From Alistipes sp. dk3624 (GTDB lineage Bacteria; Bacteroidota; Bacteroidia; Bacteroidales; Rikenellaceae), in the NCBI RefSeq assembly GCF_009557455.1, contig NZ_CP045651.1, positions 1,550,001 through 1,614,000 of the forward strand: a stretch of 64,000 nt of DNA, in the 5' to 3' direction. The notes under the pieces are model-generated. The model had not been told where the DNA came from. It worked only from the letters and a program-made list of their open reading frames with translations, and did not search any database. Position 1 is the first letter of the stretch; the number at the start of each line of letters is the position of its first letter. Positions 8,138-63,810 of the stretch are shown here, in pieces. The translations under genes were made by a program, and so were the position numbers.

Positions 8138-9055
8138 TCAGCGGCGTTCATTGTAAAGCGCGAGACGCGCTTTACACAGCCGTTCGATCAGTTCCTTCAT
8201 TTTCTGCGTCCGTTCGACGTATCCGCCGATCTCGGCCCGGCACGGGCCGCACCGGAACAGGAAAAGCGCATCCCTGCGGTATACGTCCAGCCGGCTCAGC
8301 ATCCGGCTGTTGGAGGTCTGTTCGGGATCGAGCAGCAGGTACAACTCGGGCGAGATCGTCCGCATACGCAGCAGCAGCGTCGTCAGCGTGTGCAGGTCGG
8401 TATCTGCGGCGTAATAAACGCCGTAGAGCGCATGCAGCAGCATTTCGGCAGCGCAGGCGGTCAGGAACGCCGTCTGCCGGAAATCCCCGGCTGCAAGGCT
8501 CCGCCCGGCGGCCGCAAGGAATCCCCCGGCCTGCCCCGAAAACAACTCGTAACGGTCGAGCGCCGCGAAATAAAATTTCTCGTAATTGCAGGGATTCCGG
8601 ACGACCGTTTCCCGGCTGTACAGCACCTTCCCTTCGGACAACGCCATGCGGTAAAACCATTTCATTTTGCCGGCGGCCTCGGCTGCCGAATACAGGTGCA
8701 GGTTGATGAAAGAGATCGCCCGACTCCTGGTAGGATATTTAAATTTGAGGTAACCGTGCAGGTCGAGCCATTCCATCGTGGGATGCATCGGGGTAACGAC
8801 CAGCAGGTCGTAAGCCGCCATTTCGCTGAACGGCATCGCACCGGCCAGCGAGCCGAACAGAACGACCCGTTCGGGATCGACCGCCTGCCGGATCGTCCGG
8901 ACGATCCGGCCGAGCTCGCCGGGATCGTAACTCGCAGCGACCGCAGGTTGTCCGACCGCTTGTTCGGCGGATTGTTCGTCCGCATCCCGGAATAAATTTT
9001 CCTGCAAAAAATCCTGTTTCTGTAAAAAATTCGGTATCGTTTCCATTTTTATCAA
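8138..9055 (-). CDS. MNT-HEPN fusion protein
   Basis: A 305-residue protein with a minimal nucleotidyltransferase domain (about residues 45-140) and a C-terminal HEPN-type helical domain (about 160-290). The nucleotidyltransferase P-loop-like motif VVLFGSLAG is present. The usual DxD pair is only half kept (AAYDLLVV), so catalysis may be weakened. MNT and HEPN domains often form toxin-antitoxin pairs as separate proteins; a single-chain fusion is a known Bacteroidota arrangement of unclear role. ATG starts at 9055 and 9046 are both possible. The gene lies directly downstream, on the same strand, of the tandem RNA repeats, so read-through expression is plausible. Confidence 0.75.
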   Translation of the reverse strand: MIKMETIPNFLQKQDFLQENLFRDADEQSAEQAVGQPAVAASYDPGELGRIVRTIRQAVDPERVVLFGSLAGAMPFSEMAAYDLLVVTPMHPTMEWLDLHGYLKFKYPTRSRAISFINLHLYSAAEAAGKMKWFYRMALSEGKVLYSRETVVRNPCNYEKFYFAALDRYELFSGQAGGFLAAAGRSLAAGDFRQTAFLTACAAEMLLHALYGVYYAADTDLHTLTTLLLRMRTISPELYLLLDPEQTSNSRMLSRLDVYRRDALFLFRCGPCRAEIGGYVERTQKMKELIERLCKARLALYNERR

Positions 9056-9251
9056 TTTTAAAAGTTTAGGGAATAAAGGTTCCGGCCTTGCCGCGCACGG
9101 ACTGCGGCGAAGCGAATCAAGTATTGACCGACAGGCATTTGTCAGATCAACAGATAAAAACGGAAACGGGATAACCTGTCACGGGGCGGATGCCCGGAGT
9201 TGGCCTTGCGGCTGGTCGGTACCGGAGTACAGACGGATAATGTTGTTCGCA

Positions 9252-9418
9252 TAAATAAAAAATATGCGCAGCTGCGAACAACATTATCCCCATTTTCAGG
9301 TTCCAAAGTGTGCCATTCGCGGGTCGCTGAACCCCAACGGCTCTGCGCATACTTTGTTTAAGTATGTTGCACTCTGAAACCATTTCGTGAAAATGATTTT
9401 ATATAATGTTGTTCGCAA
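9252..9418 (-). ncRNA. Candidate structured RNA, chromosomal copy 1
   Basis: Read on the minus strand, arm A (9403-9418) begins three bases after the -7 box TACCTTTG (9422-9429). X is TATGCGCAG (9343-9351), arm B is 9273-9289, X-prime is CTGCGCATA (9263-9271), and the tail is TTTTTTATTT. B pairs with A over ~15 bases or with the downstream C arm (9235-9251) over 17 perfect bases, while X and X-prime are perfect complements. A:B with X:X-prime would be a pseudoknot. The same layout recurs in copy 2 and twice in the prophage. In this copy the ATG in C has become ATT. Confidence 0.55.
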
Positions 9419-9554
9419 GAGCAAAGGTACGAAATTTTAATTTCCGAGTATACAAACCGGCAGATAAAAACAGAATATGGGATAACCTGTCGCGGGGCGG
9501 ATGCCCAGAGTTGGCCTTGCGGCTGGTCGGTACCGGAGTACGGACGGGATACAT
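9399..9554 (-). CDS. Possible 51-residue peptide of the repeat unit
   Basis: An ATG inside the C arm of RNA copy 2 opens a 51-codon frame beginning MYPVRTPVPT and containing GHPPRDRLSHILFLSAGLYT. The partial third repeat carries a related 59-codon frame in the same place. The start is preceded directly by sequence complementary to arm B, as in the prophage cassettes. Because the DNA itself is repeated, shared sequence alone does not prove coding. No known domain is recognised. Confidence 0.25.
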   Translation of the reverse strand: MYPVRTPVPTSRKANSGHPPRDRLSHILFLSAGLYTRKLKFRTFALANNII

Positions 9555-9562
9555 GGTTCGCA

Positions 9563-9724
9563 TAAAATAAAAAATGCGCAGTTGCGAACCATATATCCCC
9601 TTGTTACAGGCTCAATAAAGTGCCATTCGCGGGTCGCTAAACCCCAACAGCTCTGCGCATACCTTTTTAAATTGGTTGCTTTATCGAGCACCATAGTAAC
9701 AATTAATAAATATATGATTCGCAA
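9563..9724 (-). ncRNA. Candidate structured RNA, chromosomal copy 2
   Basis: The architecture is that of copy 1. The -7 box is TATCTTTG (9728-9735), with A at 9710-9724, X at 9653-9661, B at 9583-9599, X-prime at 9574-9581, a TTTTTTATTTTA tail, and C at 9546-9562. The loop-proximal stem has changed from GTTGTTCGCA in copy 1 to CATGGTTCGCA, with matching changes in the partner arms. This is covariation within two neighbouring units. The -33-like TTTG is 23 bases from the -7 box, longer than usual. Confidence 0.55.
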
Positions 9725-9860
9725 GAGCAAAGATACAAAATTTTAATTCCCGAGTATACAAACCGGCAGATAAAAACAGAATATGGGATAACCTGTCGCG
9801 GGGCGGATGCCCGAAGTTGACCTTGCGGCCGGTCGGTACCGGAGTACGGACGGGACACAT
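9681..9860 (-). CDS. Possible 59-residue peptide of the partial third repeat
   Basis: The frame starts MCPVRTPVPTGRK and is related to the frame of copy 2, with a longer end that runs over the copy 2 promoter. A nearby upstream ATG at 9869 would add three residues. The C arm TGCGAACC just before the ATG is kept, but A, X and B are missing. Coding is unproven. Confidence 0.25.
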   Translation of the reverse strand: MCPVRTPVPTGRKVNFGHPPRDRLSHILFLSAGLYTRELKFCIFALANHIFINCYYGAR

Positions 9861-9998
9861 GGTTCGCATAAAATAGTAGGCAGAAGTTATGAAACTAATT
9901 CTATATATTTATAAACATATTCGGTTGATATACATATAAATATCTTTAAAAAGACGCAAAAATGCAATGTTTTACCTATGTTGTACCCGTTAAAAGAA

Positions 9999-37131: not shown

Positions 37132-37144
37132 CACAAGCACACAA

Positions 37145-37175
37145 CAAAGATCAATACGTTCGGCACATTATGCAA
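37145..37175 (-). promoter_or_regulatory. 31 bp phage promoter-like motif, copy 1
   Basis: On the minus strand: TTGCATAATG-N12-TGATCTTTG. The end resembles the -7 element (TTTG), while the usual -33 TTTG is replaced by the conserved TTGCATAATG. The tail tip ATG is 14 bases downstream. Three more copies are at 48300, 57468 and 63780, each just ahead of a minus-strand phage operon. Confidence 0.7.
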
Positions 37176-43708: not shown

Positions 43709-43781
43709 TTCGATAAAGATTTGATCCCGCCCCGGTCTCGCTCCGTGATGCAAGTCGTTAACTTTCCAGCGGGAAAAAGGA

Positions 43782-48237: not shown

Positions 48238-48299
48238 AATTCCCACACGTAAATAAGTCCTTCCGTTAGTGCCTGTGGCTTATATCATCATAAGCACTT

Positions 48300-48330
48300 C
48301 AAAGGTCTGCACGTTCGGCACATTATCCAA
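48300..48330 (-). promoter_or_regulatory. 31 bp phage promoter-like motif, copy 2
   Basis: On the minus strand: TTGGATAATG-N12-AGACCTTTG. It lies 145 bases upstream of the scaffold gene, a longer leader than at the other three copies (14-20 bases), and has one change in the left box. Confidence 0.65.
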
Positions 48331-50252: not shown

Positions 50253-50589
50253 TGAATTTTACTCCTGATAGCATTTGTGGCTATTTTTGTCAGTTGTTCA
50301 AATACAAATAAATTACCAGCTATAGGAGAAAAGGTTGATTTGACAAAAGAATGTTTATCTGCAATTTCGGAATCTTATTATGACAAATTGAATGAGGTTT
50401 GTAATAACAAAGATGAAGATGCGCTTACTTCAATGATTTCTGCGCAAACAGTGTATGTACTAAACCCATATATCAATTCCTATACAATGAAAGAGAAAAA
50501 ATTCGGCAAATTGTAAGATCGAAGTTAATACAGGGGATGGAAAATTTGAAGTTTGGGTTGCATCTAAGTTTATTGAACCTGTAAAATAG
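50253..50589 (+). pseudogene. Decayed lipoprotein gene
   Basis: A lipoprotein signal (ILLLIAFVAIFVSCSN) is readable from 50256, but the start is lost: the sequence reads TTGAATTTTAC where ATGAAA-ATTTTAC would be expected, with a TGA in frame. The frame stops at 50514-50516 after KEKKFGKL, while coding sequence continues in another frame (CKIEVNTGDGKFEVWVASKF, then IEPVK and a stop at 50589). Two lesions suggest a broken gene. A GTG at 50277 could still give a 79-residue product. Confidence 0.6.
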
Positions 50590-50600
50590 GCACTTTTTAT

Positions 50601-50628
50601 AGCCCCGAAAATTTCGGGGCTTTTTTTT
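50601..50628 (+). terminator. Terminator of the lipoprotein island
   Basis: AGCCCCGAAA and TTTCGGGGCT form a 10 bp stem with an A loop and a following T8 run. The T run overlaps the -33 box of the next promoter. Confidence 0.85.
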
Positions 50629-50656
50629 GTTTTTTCAAAAATTTTTACTATGTTTG
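50626..50656 (+). promoter_or_regulatory. Promoter of antirepressor cassette A
   Basis: TTTG (50626-50629), 19-base spacer, TATGTTTG (50649-50656): a consensus promoter. Arm A of the structured leader starts three bases after the -7 box. Confidence 0.8.
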
Positions 50657-50659
50657 CAA

Positions 50660-50835
50660 TGCTAACAGTTCGATGTGCTTAATCATCTCGCAGGGCAAGC
50701 GGTCAGATTGCTCAATATGTTGGGCTTTTTTTATGCCCATATAGAAACGGCGGTTGCCTTTACGTAAGTTATTGAATGCTCTTCGGGGTGGTTCATCGAC
50801 TGTTAGCAGCGTAAACGGCAGCCGCTTTTTATTTT
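50660..50835 (+). ncRNA. c4-like structured leader RNA of cassette A
   Basis: Arm A is TGCTAACAGTTCGATG (50660-50675), X is GCGGTTGCC (50750-50758), and arm B is CATCGACTGTTAGCA (50794-50808). X-prime is GGCAGCCGC (50817-50825), followed by TTTTTATTTT. A and B pair over 14 bp with one bulged T; X and X-prime pair over 9 bp with one G-U. B is also perfectly complementary over 11 bases to C, TGCTAACAGTC (50859-50869), which abuts the ATG of the next gene. The RNA can thus hide or expose the start site, or act in trans on it. The layout matches the leader of cassette B and the repeats at 9.2-9.7 kb. Confidence 0.7.
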
Positions 50836-50869
50836 GCCTATATTTTTTAACTTTTAAATGCTAACAGTC

Positions 50870-51151
50870 ATGTCTAACAACACAACCTACACCAGCCGTC
50901 ACACGGACTGCGGCTTCGCGATGGAGGTCATTTCCGACTCCTTATCTATCTACAAAGTCTCTAAGCGAGGCAATGAATCCCTTCTCTGTATCAAGAACAG
51001 TCATGACGAAATCACCGTTACCCTTCGCCATGCAAAATTACTTCTCGAATCCCTTTCCCGTCTCATCGAAGACCGCACTATCACCGGCCCGCAACCGGTC
51101 TACAACTTCAAAGAATGCGTTAACGCTGGTAGAATCGTTAAAAGGGGATAG
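50870..51151 (+). CDS. Conserved 93-residue protein of the antirepressor cassette
   Basis: Starts MSNNTTYTSRHTDCGFAMEV directly after site C of the leader RNA. It has a paralog of exactly 93 residues at 62353-62634 in cassette B; the last ~30 codons are almost identical at the DNA level. The middle (VTLRHAKLLLESLSRLIEDR) is helical. An upstream in-frame TTA/ATG extension is not needed. Function unknown. By analogy with icd of P1, a leading reading frame before an antirepressor could couple translation, but this is inference. Confidence 0.7.
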   Translation: MSNNTTYTSRHTDCGFAMEVISDSLSIYKVSKRGNESLLCIKNSHDEITVTLRHAKLLLESLSRLIEDRTITGPQPVYNFKECVNAGRIVKRG

Positions 51152-51153
51152 CC

Positions 51154-51474
51154 ATGAAAACATCTGATTTGCGGGACATTATGCGTATAGCTTGGCAACT
51201 TGTACGTAAAAATGGCTTCACAATGTCCGAAGCCCTGAAAACTGCTTGGCTTAATTTCAAGCTCAAAATGAAAATGAGATACGGAATCGTCAAGTTCTAC
51301 TACCAGAAAATATCCGGTGAGATTCGTGAGGCATACGGCACTTTGCGCGCCGATCTTATGCCTCAGACAAAAGGCGCGGATCGCAAGTCCAATCCTACTG
51401 TTCAGGTCTATTATGATTCGGAATGCGAGGGATACCGATGTTTCAAGATTGCCAACCTTGTAAAAATCGCGTAG
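51154..51474 (+). CDS. DUF2693-like phage protein
   Basis: A 106-residue protein. The N-terminal half is helical (MKTSDLRDIMRIAWQLVRKN), the C-terminal half beta (VKFYYQKISGEIREAYGTLR; VQVYYDSECEGYRCFKIANL), a pattern found in DUF2693 SH3-like proteins of Bacteroidota phages. It starts two bases after the 93-residue gene and ends two bases before the antirepressor ATG. It has no counterpart in cassette B. Confidence 0.65.
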   Translation: MKTSDLRDIMRIAWQLVRKNGFTMSEALKTAWLNFKLKMKMRYGIVKFYYQKISGEIREAYGTLRADLMPQTKGADRKSNPTVQVYYDSECEGYRCFKIANLVKIA

Positions 51475-51476
51475 CC

Positions 51477-52253
51477 ATGAACACACAGATATTTCAGTAT
51501 AACAATAATCCAGTGACCTTCCGGATGGATAACGGCCTTACCTATGTATCGGCCACTGAAATGGCAAAACCATTCGGCAAGCAACCTTATGAGTATTTAC
51601 GCTTACCATCTACAAATGAATTAGTTAAGGCCGTTACGGGAAAATCCCGTATCGTTGAGAATCAGGTTGTTATAAAAGAGCGCGGCGGACTTGGGGGCGG
51701 AGGAACCACCTGGCTCCACGAAGACGTAGCCCTTGATTTTGCACAATGGTTGAGTGTAGATTTTCGTCTTTGGTGTCTTGACAGGCTCAAAGAACTGCTG
51801 AAGTACGGCATCACAGCCACACAGCCGACCATAGAGACTATTATTGACGATCCGGATAATGCGATCAAGCTGCTTACGGCGTTGAAGCAAGAGCGGGCCG
51901 AGCGTCAACGCCTGGCCGAGCAGAACGAACTACATAGACAACAGCTTGAAATGGCGGCTCCTAAAGTTCAGTATTACGATACCGTCCTGATGAGTGAAAG
52001 CACGTACAACACTAATAATATTGCGAAGGAGTTCGGCATGTCCGCAAGGACTCTGAATAGCATATTGCAGTCGAAAGGCGTGCAATACCGACAGGGCGGT
52101 CAGTGGTTGTTGTATCACAAGTACCAGAACCGAGGATTCACTAAGACGCATACGTATGCTTTTACCCGCCTGGACGGATCTACCGGGACATCCATTCAGA
52201 CAGTGTGGACTGAGGCTGGGCGAAAGTTCATTCACGAACTGTTAGGGAGTTAA
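51477..52253 (+). CDS. KilA-N / KilAC phage antirepressor
   Basis: A 258-residue protein with an N-terminal KilA-N-type DNA-binding domain (about 15-110, LTYVSATEMAKPFGKQPYEY; TTWLHEDVALDFAQWLSVDF), a central coiled coil (QERAERQRLAEQNELHRQQL), and a C-terminal KilAC domain (about 165-255, STYNTNNIAKEFGMSARTLN; WTEAGRKFIHELL). Such proteins antagonise phage repressors or act as alternative regulators. ATG 51477 was chosen over an upstream frame that overlaps the previous gene. It is the main gene of cassette A. Confidence 0.85.
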   Translation: MNTQIFQYNNNPVTFRMDNGLTYVSATEMAKPFGKQPYEYLRLPSTNELVKAVTGKSRIVENQVVIKERGGLGGGGTTWLHEDVALDFAQWLSVDFRLWCLDRLKELLKYGITATQPTIETIIDDPDNAIKLLTALKQERAERQRLAEQNELHRQQLEMAAPKVQYYDTVLMSESTYNTNNIAKEFGMSARTLNSILQSKGVQYRQGGQWLLYHKYQNRGFTKTHTYAFTRLDGSTGTSIQTVWTEAGRKFIHELLGS

Positions 52254-52257
52254 CAAG

Positions 52258-52392
52258 ATGGGGGATTATAACTTCACTGTCGCCGACGTGCTTAAAAGGC
52301 TGTCGGAAGATCAACAGTTCAGGGAGCAATTTCTATTGCTGATCGACGAATTGATAAGACTATTGAGGCTACCCGCAGATAATGCGAATTGA
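52258..52392 (+). CDS. 44-residue protein ending cassette A
   Basis: A short gene starting MGDYNFTVADVLKRLSEDQQ, five bases after the antirepressor. A paralog of exactly 44 residues ends cassette B (61456-61590), with the shared pattern DVxKRxxEDxxFRxxxLLLIxELLxxL. Conservation of length and hydrophobic spacing in two cassettes indicates it is translated. Predicted helical; function unknown, possibly a partner of the antirepressor. Confidence 0.65.
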   Translation: MGDYNFTVADVLKRLSEDQQFREQFLLLIDELIRLLRLPADNAN

Positions 52393-52410
52393 ATAATGAC
52401 AGGGAGGAAT

Positions 52411-53499
52411 TTAGCCTCCCTGTTTTTGTAAAACATTCACATATTTTTTGTTCTCTTTTATCCAATACGGAAGTTTACCCCGTTTTGCCGCATCAAGAAT
52501 ACGATCCTCATTTTCATTAAGCCAATCATTGTAACCTGATGGCGTATCTTTGACCTCGTTTTCGGGCTTCTCCCACCAATCTTTATTTGTCCCCTCGTTA
52601 GCAAGGATGGGTACGGCATAACAACGGCAGTTCGGATGCCATCCGATGAACTTAAATGTTTTCGGATACCTTCCTTCCATCCGGTCGCAAATCTCCAAAG
52701 GCGCACGTCCTTTTTTAAAGCGCGGATACCAGTATTTTGCCAACCATGTGGCATGTGATTTGGATGTTTTAATATCAATGCCTACGACAAAATCAAACTG
52801 CTGCCACCGGATGTAATCGGATTCCCTGTATGCCGTATTTATGACCGTGCGGGTCATTCTAATTGCGTTCTGGTACGACGACCGGTAAACCCCTTGCCCG
52901 GGATGATACGCCTTCGCATTTTTCGACAATACGAGATTCCCGAATTTATCGCGCACCCGGCGAAACAGTCGATCTGGTTCGTTCAAATATTGGCGAACGT
53001 CTTGACTCATACGTGCCGCGCTACGGCCTTCGCTCAAACCTACCGACAGAGTTAGTTCGATCTGCTCTTTGAATTGAGTTGTGTATTTCCAGACCCTATC
53101 CGACAAGGTGTGCCCGTAAAACTTTTGCCTTCTGAAAGCCGCTAAAGCCTGTTGGTTGTGCTGGAGATAAGCCTTTTTAGGGGAGTCTGTAAGAGATAGA
53201 ACCCATTCGTCATTCTTGGTGTTTGCGAACGCCCATTCGGAAGCAATGCCCCCTGTGATGATTCCGTACAACTGCGATTTAAAGTTCGTCAGAATAGCAT
53301 TCGCATTTTTGCTCGACTGTTTTGACGACGAGAAGGAGAATAATTTCCCTTGTTCCGGATTGTAATCGTATTTTGCGCCTAATTGCAATAATTCGACCGC
53401 CGCAATACCATAGAGAGCGTCGATATTGCCAACATATTCAGCAATATGATCCTTGTGCTCTTTTTCCCACTTTTGATGGTCGAATTTATCGCGTGTCAA
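52411..53499 (-). CDS. Phage minor head protein (SPP1 gp7 / Mu F type)
   Basis: A 362-residue protein with a helical body (LSVGLSEGRSAARMSQDVRQ; MTRTVINTAYRESDYIRWQQ) and the C-terminal GWHPNCRCYAVPI motif typical of Mu F-like and SPP1 gp7-like head morphogenesis proteins. It follows the portal gene. The only start available before an in-frame stop is TTG at 53499 (TTGACACGCG). It converges on cassette A. Confidence 0.88.
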   Translation of the reverse strand: MTRDKFDHQKWEKEHKDHIAEYVGNIDALYGIAAVELLQLGAKYDYNPEQGKLFSFSSSKQSSKNANAILTNFKSQLYGIITGGIASEWAFANTKNDEWVLSLTDSPKKAYLQHNQQALAAFRRQKFYGHTLSDRVWKYTTQFKEQIELTLSVGLSEGRSAARMSQDVRQYLNEPDRLFRRVRDKFGNLVLSKNAKAYHPGQGVYRSSYQNAIRMTRTVINTAYRESDYIRWQQFDFVVGIDIKTSKSHATWLAKYWYPRFKKGRAPLEICDRMEGRYPKTFKFIGWHPNCRCYAVPILANEGTNKDWWEKPENEVKDTPSGYNDWLNENEDRILDAAKRGKLPYWIKENKKYVNVLQKQGG

Positions 53500-57447: not shown

Positions 57448-57467
57448 AGGTGTAAAACCTTATATTG

Positions 57468-57498
57468 CAAAGGTCAGTACGTCCGGCGCATTATGCAA
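57468..57498 (-). promoter_or_regulatory. 31 bp phage promoter-like motif, copy 3
   Basis: On the minus strand: TTGCATAATG-N12-TGACCTTTG, ending 20 bases before the gene upstream of the terminase. It would start the packaging and head transcript. Confidence 0.7.
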
Positions 57499-61455: not shown

Positions 61456-61590
61456 TTAATTCGATTTTTCACATGCGTTTTTCAACATGCAAAGCAGCTC
61501 GTTTATCAGCAGCAACAATTCCCGGCGGAATACTTCGTCTTCGCCCATACGTTTGATTACGTCCAGGGCCGTATATTCATACTCGGTCAT
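61456..61590 (-). CDS. 44-residue protein ending cassette B
   Basis: Starts MTEYEYTALDVIKRMGEDEV and overlaps the antirepressor end by 14 bases. Paralog of the 44-residue protein at 52258-52392, same length and same last position in the cassette. Helical; unknown function. Confidence 0.65.
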   Translation of the reverse strand: MTEYEYTALDVIKRMGEDEVFRRELLLLINELLCMLKNACEKSN

Positions 61591-62350
61591 CGTGAAACAG
61601 GTTGTAGATGAATTCGCGGCCCTTTTCCGTCCAGTATAGATGCTGTTTGGTAAACTGTTGGCCGGTCGTGCTGCTGATGTAAGTATGCGTTCTATAACCT
61701 TCGTATCCCTGGCCCCGGTATTTCGCATACAGTACGTAGGTGTCGCTTTGCCGGTATATAATACCGCGCTTCACCAGCATGTCGTTTAGCCGCCTTGCGC
61801 TAACGCCTAATTGATCGGCTATCACGTTTGTCGTAATCAAGCTGTCCGATTGCAATACTTTATTGTAATATTGCACCATCGGCGCGGCCTTTTCGATTTG
61901 CTCGTTTGCCAGTCTGTTTTCTTCGGCAAGGCGCTCCTTCTCGGCCCGCTCTTGCTTCAACTGCGTTGCGAGCTTTATGATCGTATCCGGATCGGATAAC
62001 ACTTCCTCTACTTTCCGGTCGGTTAGGTAGGCCCCGTGTTTGCGAACGGATGGCAGAACTTCGGTCGTCACCCACCGTTTGAACTGTTTTGCGGTAGGTA
62101 ACTTAGACCCGAAAACAAGGGAGTAGACTCCGGATTCGTTGATAGCTGTCATTTCTCTATTTTGGCTGCCGTCGTGAATCACGACACCAGTTTTATCCTC
62201 ACTGTCAACGTGCCTATTAATAGCGTCTCTTGGATTAGAATATCCGAGAGCGCAACATACGTCATTAGCTACAAAATATGGCACTGTTTTAACATCGACA
62301 ACCCGAACACGTCCGAATTGCTGATTATTGAAAATTTGCATGGTGTTCAT
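61577..62350 (-). CDS. BRO-N / KilAC phage antirepressor
   Basis: A 257-residue protein with an N-terminal BRO domain (about 5-115: VVDVKTVPYFVANDVCCALG; NESGVYSLVFGSKLPTAKQF; WVTTEVLPSVRKHGAYL), a linker coil (LKQERAEKERLAEENRLANE), and a C-terminal KilAC domain (about 165-255) related to that of cassette A. So the two antirepressors share the C-terminal part but have different DNA-binding N-terminal domains. It begins two bases after the 93-residue gene. Confidence 0.88.
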   Translation of the reverse strand: MNTMQIFNNQQFGRVRVVDVKTVPYFVANDVCCALGYSNPRDAINRHVDSEDKTGVVIHDGSQNREMTAINESGVYSLVFGSKLPTAKQFKRWVTTEVLPSVRKHGAYLTDRKVEEVLSDPDTIIKLATQLKQERAEKERLAEENRLANEQIEKAAPMVQYYNKVLQSDSLITTNVIADQLGVSARRLNDMLVKRGIIYRQSDTYVLYAKYRGQGYEGYRTHTYISSTTGQQFTKQHLYWTEKGREFIYNLFHDDRV

Positions 62351-62352
62351 GT

Positions 62353-62634
62353 CTACCCCCTTTTAACGATTCTACCAGCGTTAACGCATTCTCTGAAGTT
62401 GTAGACCGGTTGCGGGCCGGTGATAGTGCGGTCTTCGATGAGGCGGGATAGGGATTCGAGAAGTAATTTTGCATGGCGAAGGGTAACTACAATCTGATCG
62501 TTGCCCTGCTGAATGTTGAAAAGGGATTCGTTGCCCTCTTTAGAAACCTTGTAGACGGTTAGCGATCCCGTCGGTCTTTCGATAACGCAGCCGCATGAAG
62601 CATAGCGGGCCGCGTAGGTTGTGTTGTTGGACAT
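62353..62634 (-). CDS. Conserved 93-residue protein of antirepressor cassette B
   Basis: Starts MSNNTTYAARYASCGCVIER immediately after site C of the leader RNA. Paralog of 50870-51151; the last third is nearly identical at the DNA level, which argues for a recent duplication. Helical core VTLRHAKLLLESLSRLIEDR. Function unknown. Confidence 0.7.
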   Translation of the reverse strand: MSNNTTYAARYASCGCVIERPTGSLTVYKVSKEGNESLFNIQQGNDQIVVTLRHAKLLLESLSRLIEDRTITGPQPVYNFRECVNAGRIVKRG

Positions 62635-62660
62635 GGTGTTTAAGCATTTTGTTTAGGCAC

Positions 62661-62829
62661 AATAAAACGGTCGTGCCTTTCCCGCTGCTTAAACACCTAT
62701 TAGGGCGAATCGCTAAGGCATTACACCTTTCGCACGGGGGTACACGACCGAAGTCTTATTTAATATCAAAACAGGCAATAAAAAACCACCTGCTAAGGTG
62801 GGCGCACAGCCCTAATAAATGTTTAAGCA
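62661..62829 (-). ncRNA. c4-like structured leader RNA of cassette B
   Basis: On the minus strand: arm A (62809-62829, starting TGCTTAAACATT), X CGGTCGTG (62743-62750), arm B (62686-62706), X-prime CACGACCG (62668-62675), then TTTTATT. A and B pair over 21 positions with two G-U pairs; X and X-prime pair over 8. B also pairs perfectly over 12 bases with C, TGCTTAAACACC (62635-62646), which abuts the ATG of the 93-residue gene. An internal CCACC/GGTGG hairpin with a T6 run (62780-62795 region) could be an early terminator. Sequence differs from cassette A, but order and spacing are the same. Confidence 0.7.
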
Positions 62830-62832
62830 TTA

Positions 62833-62863
62833 CAAATATAGTCACAATTTTTAAATTGTCAAA
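62833..62863 (-). promoter_or_regulatory. Promoter of antirepressor cassette B
   Basis: On the minus strand TTTG (62860-62863), 19-base spacer, TATATTTG (62833-62840): an exact consensus. Arm A begins three bases after the -7 box, as in cassette A. Confidence 0.82.
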
Positions 62864-62877
62864 TAAACCCACACAAA

Positions 62878-62926
62878 TTTGCATTGCTCAATAAAAGGCA
62901 CTATATTTGTACAATAAAACGTACAA
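62878..62926 (+). promoter_or_regulatory. Promoter and operator of the toxin-antitoxin pair
   Basis: TTTG (62878-62881), 20-base spacer, TATATTTG (62902-62909), then the inverted repeat TTGTAC-N8-GTACAA (62907-62926) and a further GTACAA before the ATG. The palindrome overlaps the -7 box, as expected of an autoregulated antitoxin operator. Confidence 0.7.
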
Positions 62927-62938
62927 AAGTGCGTACAA

Positions 62939-63235
62939 ATGAAAAAGATTATGGATGCAATTACTATTAGCCCTTCGGAGTTTCGGAACAATCAAAAAAA
63001 ATACTTTGACATGGCCGAACATACTCGCGTATTTGTGAAGCGCGGGCGTAAACTTATTGAATTAGTGGTTAGCGACGGTATCAGTCTTAATCCATCCCCT
63101 TCAGGCGATCCCTGGTTCGACGATCCGCGAAATATCGCCGAACTATCCCGCCGTATCAAGGAATATGAAGCAGGCAAAGCCGGAGAAGGAATTATTTATG
63201 ATCCAAGCAAGTCACTATGGGACAATATAAAATAA
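62939..63235 (+). CDS. Phd/YefM-family antitoxin
   Basis: A 98-residue protein. The N-terminal half (AITISPSEFRNNQKKYFDMA; VFVKRGRKLIELVV) is the Phd/YefM DNA-binding fold; the C-terminal half is acidic and flexible and would wrap the toxin. It overlaps the toxin start by 19 bases, typical of coupled translation. The ATG at 62939 or 62951 may be used. It would repress its own promoter through the GTAC palindrome. Confidence 0.88.
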   Translation: MKKIMDAITISPSEFRNNQKKYFDMAEHTRVFVKRGRKLIELVVSDGISLNPSPSGDPWFDDPRNIAELSRRIKEYEAGKAGEGIIYDPSKSLWDNIK

Positions 63236-63492
63236 TCGTAAAAGATAAGGCCCGCAAAGATCTGCAAAAGCATCATAAGAGCGGCAATAGAGCGATTACC
63301 AGGCGTATCGAACAAATATTTATCGAACTTGAAGATCATCCCCAAACGGGAATAGGCAACCCTGAACAACTCAAACATGAATATAGCGGCTTTTGGTCTC
63401 GGCGGCTAAGTTCGGAACACAGGTTGATATATCGGATAAACGAGGAAACGGTTGAAGTGCTTGTCGTATCCGCTCTGGGGCACTACCAATAG
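63217..63492 (+). CDS. YoeB-family toxin (ribosome-dependent mRNA interferase)
   Basis: A 91-residue RelE/YoeB-fold toxin. YKIIVKDKARKDLQKHHKSG, RRIEQIFIELEDHPQTGIGN, PEQLKHEYSGFWSRRLSSEH and RLIYRI..VVSALGHY match the Txe/YoeB family, with the conserved Glu, Arg, His and C-terminal HY residues. It would cleave mRNA in the ribosomal A site when free of antitoxin. Carried by the prophage, it could stabilise it or guard against other phages. Confidence 0.9.
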   Translation: MGQYKIIVKDKARKDLQKHHKSGNRAITRRIEQIFIELEDHPQTGIGNPEQLKHEYSGFWSRRLSSEHRLIYRINEETVEVLVVSALGHYQ

Positions 63493-63762: not shown

Positions 63763-63779
63763 AGAATAATCTGTTTTCG

Positions 63780-63810
63780 CAAAGGTCAATAGGACCGGGA
63801 CATTATGCAA
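63780..63810 (-). promoter_or_regulatory. 31 bp phage promoter-like motif, copy 4
   Basis: On the minus strand: TTGCATAATG-N12-TGACCTTTG, 18 bases before the ATG at 63762. The central 12 bases differ most here (TCCCGGTCCTAT), showing that the two outer boxes are what is conserved. Confidence 0.7.

Follow-up and report, generated by a model that had tools for sequence, protein, structure and literature searches.

A candidate c4-like antisense leader RNA upstream of an antirepressor operon in an Alistipes prophage

We analysed 64,000 nucleotides (nt) of the Alistipes sp. dk3624 genome (contig NZ_CP045651.1, positions 1,550,001 to 1,614,000; hereafter the window), in which a prophage antirepressor operon and its leader, together called cassette A, lie on the + strand at 50626-52392, counted from the first letter of the window. 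An earlier note on this DNA had proposed a c4-like antisense leader RNA here. The elements that it named were all located in the leader (50626-50872): a promoter, the arms A-X-B-X', a U-tract and a site C at the ATG, with B complementary to both A and C. The promoter is a Bacteroidota-type box, TTTG-N19-TATGTTTG (50626-50656, +; TTTG at 50626-50629, 19 nt, TATGTTTG at 50649-50656). Perfect TTTG-N18-21-TANNTTTG sites occur eight times in the window with both strands counted (consensus scan). An intrinsic terminator with the sequence AGCCCCGAAAATTTCGGGGCTTTTTTTT (50601-50628, +) stands directly upstream, and its U-run overlaps the -33 element.

Three nt separate the promoter from arm A (50660-50675, +; TGCTAACAGT(T)CGATG), the predicted 5' end of the RNA. 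Downstream on the same strand follow the 5' side of a predicted helix, P3 (approximately 50680-50696, with its 3' side at approximately 50778-50793), arm X (50750-50764), the antisense segment B (50794-50808; CATCGACTGTTAGCA) and arm X' (50810-50825), which pairs with X and is followed by TTTTTATTTT. The U-tract at 50826-50835 (+) is the predicted 3' end of an RNA of ~176 nt. Site C (50859-50869, +; TGCTAACAGTC), the target of B, adjoins the ATG at 50870 and overlaps an in-frame ATG at 50858. B pairs with C over 11 base pairs (bp) without a mismatch, exactly as had been claimed. The other two pairings proved longer than proposed: A:B forms 15 bp with one bulged U (14 bp with one bulge in the earlier note), and X:X' forms ~15 bp with one bulge (9 bp in the earlier note). 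Folding of the segment from A to just past the U-tract was more stable than that of shuffled sequences (z = -3.64, 0/200), and a longer piece that includes C folded less distinctively (z = -1.90, 6/200).

The first open reading frame (ORF) encodes 93 amino acids (aa; 50870-51151, +), or 97 aa if the in-frame ATG at 50858 is used, and has no family match. It is followed on the same strand by genes for a 106-aa WYL_2 protein (PF10902, 51154-51474; 77.9 bits in Pfam) and a 258-aa KilA-N/KilAC antirepressor (51477-52253; KilA-N 60.9 bits, ANT/KilAC 106.7 bits), by a 44-aa ORF (52258-52392) that by eye resembles the end of the last ORF of a second cassette, B, and by a closing terminator (CAGGGAGG-AATTTAG-CCTCCCTG-TTTTT, 52400-52427). 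The ORFs and Pfam bear out the 93-aa, KilA-N/KilAC and 44-aa products of the earlier gene list; its DUF2693-like protein corresponds to the WYL_2 match, DUF2693 being the former name of PF10902. Neither the 93-aa nor the 44-aa protein had a Pfam match at E 0.01. A scan of genome contigs with the 93-aa protein found no relative, and a search of the family with an alignment of it recovered only its own genome (1/250).

The complementarity among A, B and C exceeded chance. The window has exact 10-nt triads at three loci, and 60 dinucleotide shuffles had none; for 9-nt triads the count was three (shuffled mean 0.07, maximum 1), and for 8-nt triads six (shuffled mean 0.73, maximum 4). For pairing comparisons we used six leaders from this and sister prophages (A, B, L013, L003, L022 and L017) and 16 leaders of a second, chromosomal type. 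The latter were collected by DNA similarity to window positions 9412-9880 and then selected on their promoter, X and X' motifs (a pattern picked 14, and 2 were chosen by hand); 20 places showed DNA similarity, and L066, L067, L068 and L074 were dropped (matches of 22-44 nt). Retrieval relied on DNA or pattern similarity for the chromosomal-type and cassette-A-type relatives and on protein similarity for L013 and L022, not on complementarity; L003 and L017, from the same genome as the window, were picked out by their triads.

Predicted energies favoured cognate arms. In the prophage class B:C reached -19.2 kcal/mol for own versus -8.7 kcal/mol for other arms (own best in 6/6) and A:B reached -29.4 versus -9.1 kcal/mol (6/6). 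The chromosomal-type values were -28.7 versus -15.9 kcal/mol for B:C (own best in 15/16, ties of identical arms counted) and -21.8 versus -13.2 kcal/mol for A:B (12/16). Each X of the six prophage cassettes also paired best with its own X' (6/6), and the promoter box lay 10-11 nt 5' of A in all six (perfect in five, one mismatch in L017). After identical B arms were merged, 19 distinct alleles over 11 positions gave 209/209 paired cells for A:B and 208/209 for C:B, against maxima of 181 and 179 when whole arms were dealt among alleles (2000 shuffles each); the alleles share ancestry, as do the rows of the comparison below, so these counts are not independent events. Over the first 12 nt, 26 of the 27 differences between A and a perfect complement of B kept a wobble pair, 23 of them as U opposite G (prophage and chromosomal-type set, one duplicate row dropped, 22 to 21), and C departed from the perfect complement at nine positions in the same set. 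In a wider phage set wobbles made up 5/12 differences over the first 10 nt, so the bias is weak there. The earlier note had made its reading depend on conservation of the complementarity in homologous cassettes, and in these A, B and C changed jointly with pairing kept. At the level of sequence, these data show that A, B and C complementarity is retained through sequence change.

The sister contig L022 provides a close comparison. It is identical to its sister operon over 1000/1000 nt 3' of the first ORF and 99% identical over the final 105 nt of this ORF; the leaders are 62% identical, and A, B and C all differ jointly. Joint change of A, B and C would make each allele act mainly on its own operon, which would amount to immunity specificity. 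Sister prophages that carry unlike alleles ahead of identical genes are consistent with repression in trans and heteroimmunity.

Homologues of the cassette A core were found in other phages. A DNA search with the leader against 50,697 phage records gave three matches, two Porphyromonas phages, each matched at two places, and a single faecal phage record, with 74-77% identity over 140-153 query nt that included B and neither A nor C. The same search across the order returned 50/393 genomes at E <= 0.01, nearly all with matches of 20-40 nt that were taken as chance; G633 (72% over query positions 15-203) and G556 were examined. In G556 (L123) a 16-nt pairing resembling B:C was seen and left out of the counts. 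A pattern scan of IMG/VR for X gave 20 stretches, eight of them with X' (among these, L164 is the same prophage as that of the window and L169 carries the arms of the faecal record); the 12 stretches without X' by pattern were dismissed as chance.

We retained 11 homologous loci (P023_1, P023_2, P024_1, MT836165/L169, G633, L155, L158, L159, L160, L165 and L168), leaving out the second P024 place, which spans a sequencing gap, and copies of the own prophage or L013. B:C was kept in 10/11 and A:B in 9/11. The first gene is of antirepressor type in six of the 11, namely Rha or Rha-KilAC (MT836165, L158, L160 and L165), KilA-N/KilAC (L168) and AntA (G633, a 77-aa ORF). A Pfam scan at E 0.05 gave no family for the first-gene proteins of P023_1, P023_2, L159 and L155; in P024_1 a sequencing gap interrupts this protein. 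Across 17 phage loci there were 13 distinct B 10-mers (A missing for L165, C for L155), and P024_1 and L155 share the same B over 17 nt. In six aligned leaders X:X' and the hairpin were paired in 99.1% of cells, compared to 31-51% in slid controls, with 2/19 pairs changed on both sides. The joint change of the arms and the antirepressor-type first genes support the earlier idea of c4-like logic in a Bacteroidota prophage, in which the mechanism itself is inferred. As a separate observation, arm A of G633 (L122) nearly matches that of cassette A, whereas its B and C have a different specificity, a pattern that an exchange of A would give.

Four leader copies lie in the window: those of cassettes A and B (the latter at 62.63-62.84 kb, minus strand) and a tandem pair at 9.23-9.74 kb (minus strand). 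We take these to be the four copies that the earlier note counted; the antirepressor context does not extend to the tandem pair, which is of the chromosomal type. Tandem leader 1 spans 9546-9735 (A 9710-9723, B 9583-9599, C 9546-9563) and tandem leader 2 spans 9234-9429 (A within 9395-9417, B 9273-9287, C 9234-9252), and downstream of them on the same strand is a gene for a 302-aa NTase-HEPN-like protein (8138-9046; HEPN 14.2 bits, under the cut-off of 22). The 16 chromosomal-type leaders share a core of X, a hairpin H1, X' and a U-tract, in which 97.1% of cells were paired (slid controls 31-47%) and 7/17 pairs had changed on both sides. The next ORF encodes 28-54 aa (37 aa in 7/16; 36 and 54 aa in the window), apart from one of 24 aa cut by a contig end. 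The 37-aa ORF is probably translated, because the synonymous fraction of single-base codon differences among its seven alleles (113/204, 0.55) exceeds the 0.25-0.34 expected. Ten downstream proteins were aligned and read as NTase-HEPN fusions; in a Pfam scan of seven, only L063 was over the HEPN cut-off (30.8 bits), and NTase matches were below theirs.

A covariance model of this core (R1) had matches in 19/268 genomes of the same family and in 2/393 genomes sampled across the order (27.6 bits for the second of these). The prophage leaders are not recognised by R1, whose best score there is 14.9 bits (at 50600), and a plasmid search with the 9.4 kb leader gave no match. R1, which holds neither arm A nor the A:B and B:C pairings, led to 12 further remote loci. 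A:B held in all 12 (as good in at most 2/300 shuffles), and B:C was strong in four, partial in two and absent in six, so in the chromosomal-type family A:B appears constant and C not obligatory. The six with A:B and no site C found were L094, L095, L096, L097, L104 and L105; the targets of these relatives, if any, must lie elsewhere. C was partial in L092 and L093, and the DNA upstream of L092 looks by eye like a mobilisation (relaxase) gene.

Among the closest known systems is c4, which has a 5' target duplicate, a1b1, and two antisense segments, a' and b'; a 1995 paper reportedly described processing of the c4 precursor by RNase P. Arm A of cassette A is likewise a 5' duplicate of the target (exceptions among the homologues are G633 and L165). 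The leader presented one continuous antisense segment, B at 50794-50808, no separate search for a second segment having been made. The KilA-N/KilAC gene (51477-52253) lies on the same strand as the leader, with which it may be co-transcribed, and B pairs over 11 bp at the translation start of the first gene (ATG 50870). The P1 operon c4-icd-ant is described as controlled by C4 RNA (PMC8198154, PMC8201110), and c4 as a 77-nt RNA that binds ant mRNA in the region of the ribosome binding site and is the basis of P1/P7 heteroimmunity (PMC12197685). Like P1/P7 c4, the cassette A leader heads an operon in which a small gene comes first and an antirepressor is encoded; it differs in its predicted length (~176 nt versus 77 nt), in a predicted end in a U-tract and in its Bacteroidales host; the taxa of c4 in a 2010 table are Proteobacteria and phages (PMC2864571). 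No Bacteroidota c4-like RNA was found in the open-access literature among the matches listed.

The sar RNA has its own promoter on the other strand and no A arm, and no A-B-C duplication is known in IsrK. The leader of cassette A would share with sar an antisense block of antirepressor translation and, unlike sar, is encoded on the same strand and has an A arm. According to PMC12197685, sar of phage P22 is an antisense RNA that blocks antirepressor translation, and IsrK of prophage Gifsy-1 is both a small RNA and an mRNA, linked to antQ and acting on transcription termination. Like IsrK, the leader of cassette A would be a prophage RNA with a dual role as small RNA and mRNA.

The Rfam C4 model, which the earlier note had wanted run, had no match at cassette A, cassette B or 11 fetched loci. 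Rfam C4 (RF01695) was not among 14 matches to E 5 at 50500-51000, nor was DUF2693-FD (RF02926), a 49-position model whose name comes from the second gene's protein family. Those 14 candidates lay mostly over the upstream terminator, all under gathering scores, and were set aside. The cassette B leader (62580-62950) had no C4 match to E 3. At the gathering threshold Rfam found only tRNAs in the window and eight loci, and nothing in three more loci. Because the C4 model does not match, we call the leader c4-like by anatomy and do not file it as a C4 member. Elsewhere in the window, RF02926 has a sub-threshold match at 43724-43775 on the minus strand (G000:C1:1593724-1593775; 36.1 bits versus gathering 44.5); this RNA motif is treated in PMC9756865.

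We consider it probable that the leader is a c4-like antisense switch on the antirepressor operon. Transcription would start at or in arm A, and most transcripts would stop at the X:X' hairpin and U-tract, giving an RNA of ~170-176 nt with A and B and without C. In read-through transcripts B would bind C and, because C lies on or beside the first gene's start codon, would block initiation; the block would extend to the KilA-N/KilAC antirepressor through coupling or polarity. A, as a second copy of the target, would hold B, so that repression would be set by the release of B (by processing or co-transcriptional timing). Should this control fail, the antirepressor would be made and the prophage would leave lysogeny. 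This would be the type of control described for phage P1; the sequence is unrelated to it, and related leaders occur both in bacterial genomes and in further phages.

Several observations, besides the shared ancestry behind the allele counts, weigh against this reading. A:B is predicted to be stronger than B:C in the own and sister prophage copies (-29.4 versus -19.2 kcal/mol). With a folding model that cannot represent the crossing A:B and X:X' helices, so that its energies are rough, the intact cassette A RNA ranked its own target 18 of 22; intact cassette B, L013, L003, L022 and L017 RNAs ranked theirs 1, 6, 2, 19 and 8, leaving the own target outside the first two ranks for 4/6, cassette A included. 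Removal of the first 22 nt gave ranks of 1 for cassette A and 3, 1, 5, 2 and 2 for the others in the same order, and in the chromosomal-type class the own target came first in 11/16. Processing, or pairing during transcription, would solve the rank problem in this model, and B may have to be freed before it pairs with its target. A consensus scan found no second promoter inside the six leaders, so an RNA without A would need processing. X:X' encloses a loop longer than is usual in intrinsic terminators, and two of the four window copies precede another kind of operon. Arms are also incomplete in some relatives: C was not found in L155, A was unmatched in G633 and L165, and B:C is absent from half of the remote chromosomal-type loci. 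Related arms of P024_1 and MT836165 cross-pair, so specificity is not absolute. Finally, the 300 nt upstream of the two sister leaders also differ (48% identity), and an exchange confined to the leader is therefore not established.

The alternative that survives best, and that we still find doubtful, is a switch acting only in cis, in which B pairs either with A, leaving the start codon free, or with C, blocking it; the choice would fall to a ligand, a protein or transcription speed, with no trans RNA. In its favour, a single leader holds A, B and C on the same strand, the intact leader is predicted to fold with A paired to B, and the structured core (H1, X:X') is conserved. Against it, the U-tract between X' and C in the cassettes read would yield an RNA without C, and allele specificities diversify and differ between co-resident copies, which fits action in trans and is unneeded in cis. 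A further and rather improbable extension is a self-propagating relay: B of a terminated RNA would invade A of the next nascent transcript, free its B and favour the X:X' terminator, with B also blocking C and the OFF state maintaining itself. The likeness of A and C would then reflect two targets of B, the first serving transcription and the second translation. If so, an RNA-based memory would be part of lysogeny, and NTase-HEPN-like operons outside phages would be run by the same device.

We regard as quite improbable a module resembling type I toxin-antitoxin systems, in which the leader RNA would act as antitoxin to a small ORF in first position and the antirepressor genes would be passengers. 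Several leaders are indeed followed by a small first ORF (93, 111, 64-70 and often 37 aa), and the 37-aa ORF looks translated, but in six of the 11 cassette A homologues the first ORF is itself of antirepressor type. That A, B and C are DNA operators of a repressor protein is very improbable: A does lie at the promoter and phage operators are in general often repeated, yet the sequences differ among cassettes while complementarity stays, and 26/27 A-versus-B differences keep a G-U pair, as expected for RNA (weakly so in the wider phage set, 5/12). Complementarity by chance is next to negligible given the triad shuffles, cognate energies, allele pairing counts and pairing in remote and phage homologues.

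If the antisense mechanism is true, c4-type RNA control of antirepressors would extend to Bacteroidales phages, and prophage immunity control would be linked to a device of like design that stands, at other loci, ahead of small ORFs and NTase-HEPN-like genes. The naturally swapped alleles would provide a direct test set for pairing rules, and heteroimmunity could be tested with simple reporters.

Further searches added no convincing triads. The WYL_2-protein loci L024-L043 held no convincing triad beyond the own prophage and L013 (copies shown once), nor did the antirepressor loci of LoVEphage and PV4-TP1; among 11 viral contigs with a relative of the cassette B antirepressor, only L107 and L108 (the own prophage and the L013 contig) had one. 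A second WYL_2 gene in the genome (L002, G000:C1:2512959-2513156; 67.4 bits) has no convincing triad nearby.

The leader of cassette B spans 62632-62840 on the minus strand, with its box from 62840, A at 62809-62829, X at 62735-62750, B at 62686-62706, X' at 62668-62685 and C with the ATG at 62632-62646. Its operon (61577-62634, minus strand) encodes a 93-aa protein and a KilAC protein without a WYL_2 gene. A terminator-like hairpin with a U-run lies 3' of arm A (62780-62801, minus strand; similar by eye in L013) and could cause an early stop, leaving an RNA with A only. Beside cassette B, at 62939-63492 (+), are ORFs of 98 and 91 aa that look toxin-antitoxin-like by eye and are also present in L013. 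The antirepressor at L013:3608-4390 appears by eye to be a mosaic, with an N-terminal part like that of cassette A and a C-terminal part like that of cassette B.

Past the window end, at ~1628 and ~1630 kb of the genome, two further leaders stand ahead of small ORFs (64 and 67 aa). At L017:15344-15465 (minus strand), L022:1318-1439 and L003:2306-2427 (minus strand), a 179-aa ORF and the KilAC gene are separated by a tRNA match (32.1 bits). A 36-nt element has four copies in the window (37140-37175, 48295-48330, 57463-57498 and 63775-63810; 72-100% identical to the reference copy), which are possibly shared promoters or operators.

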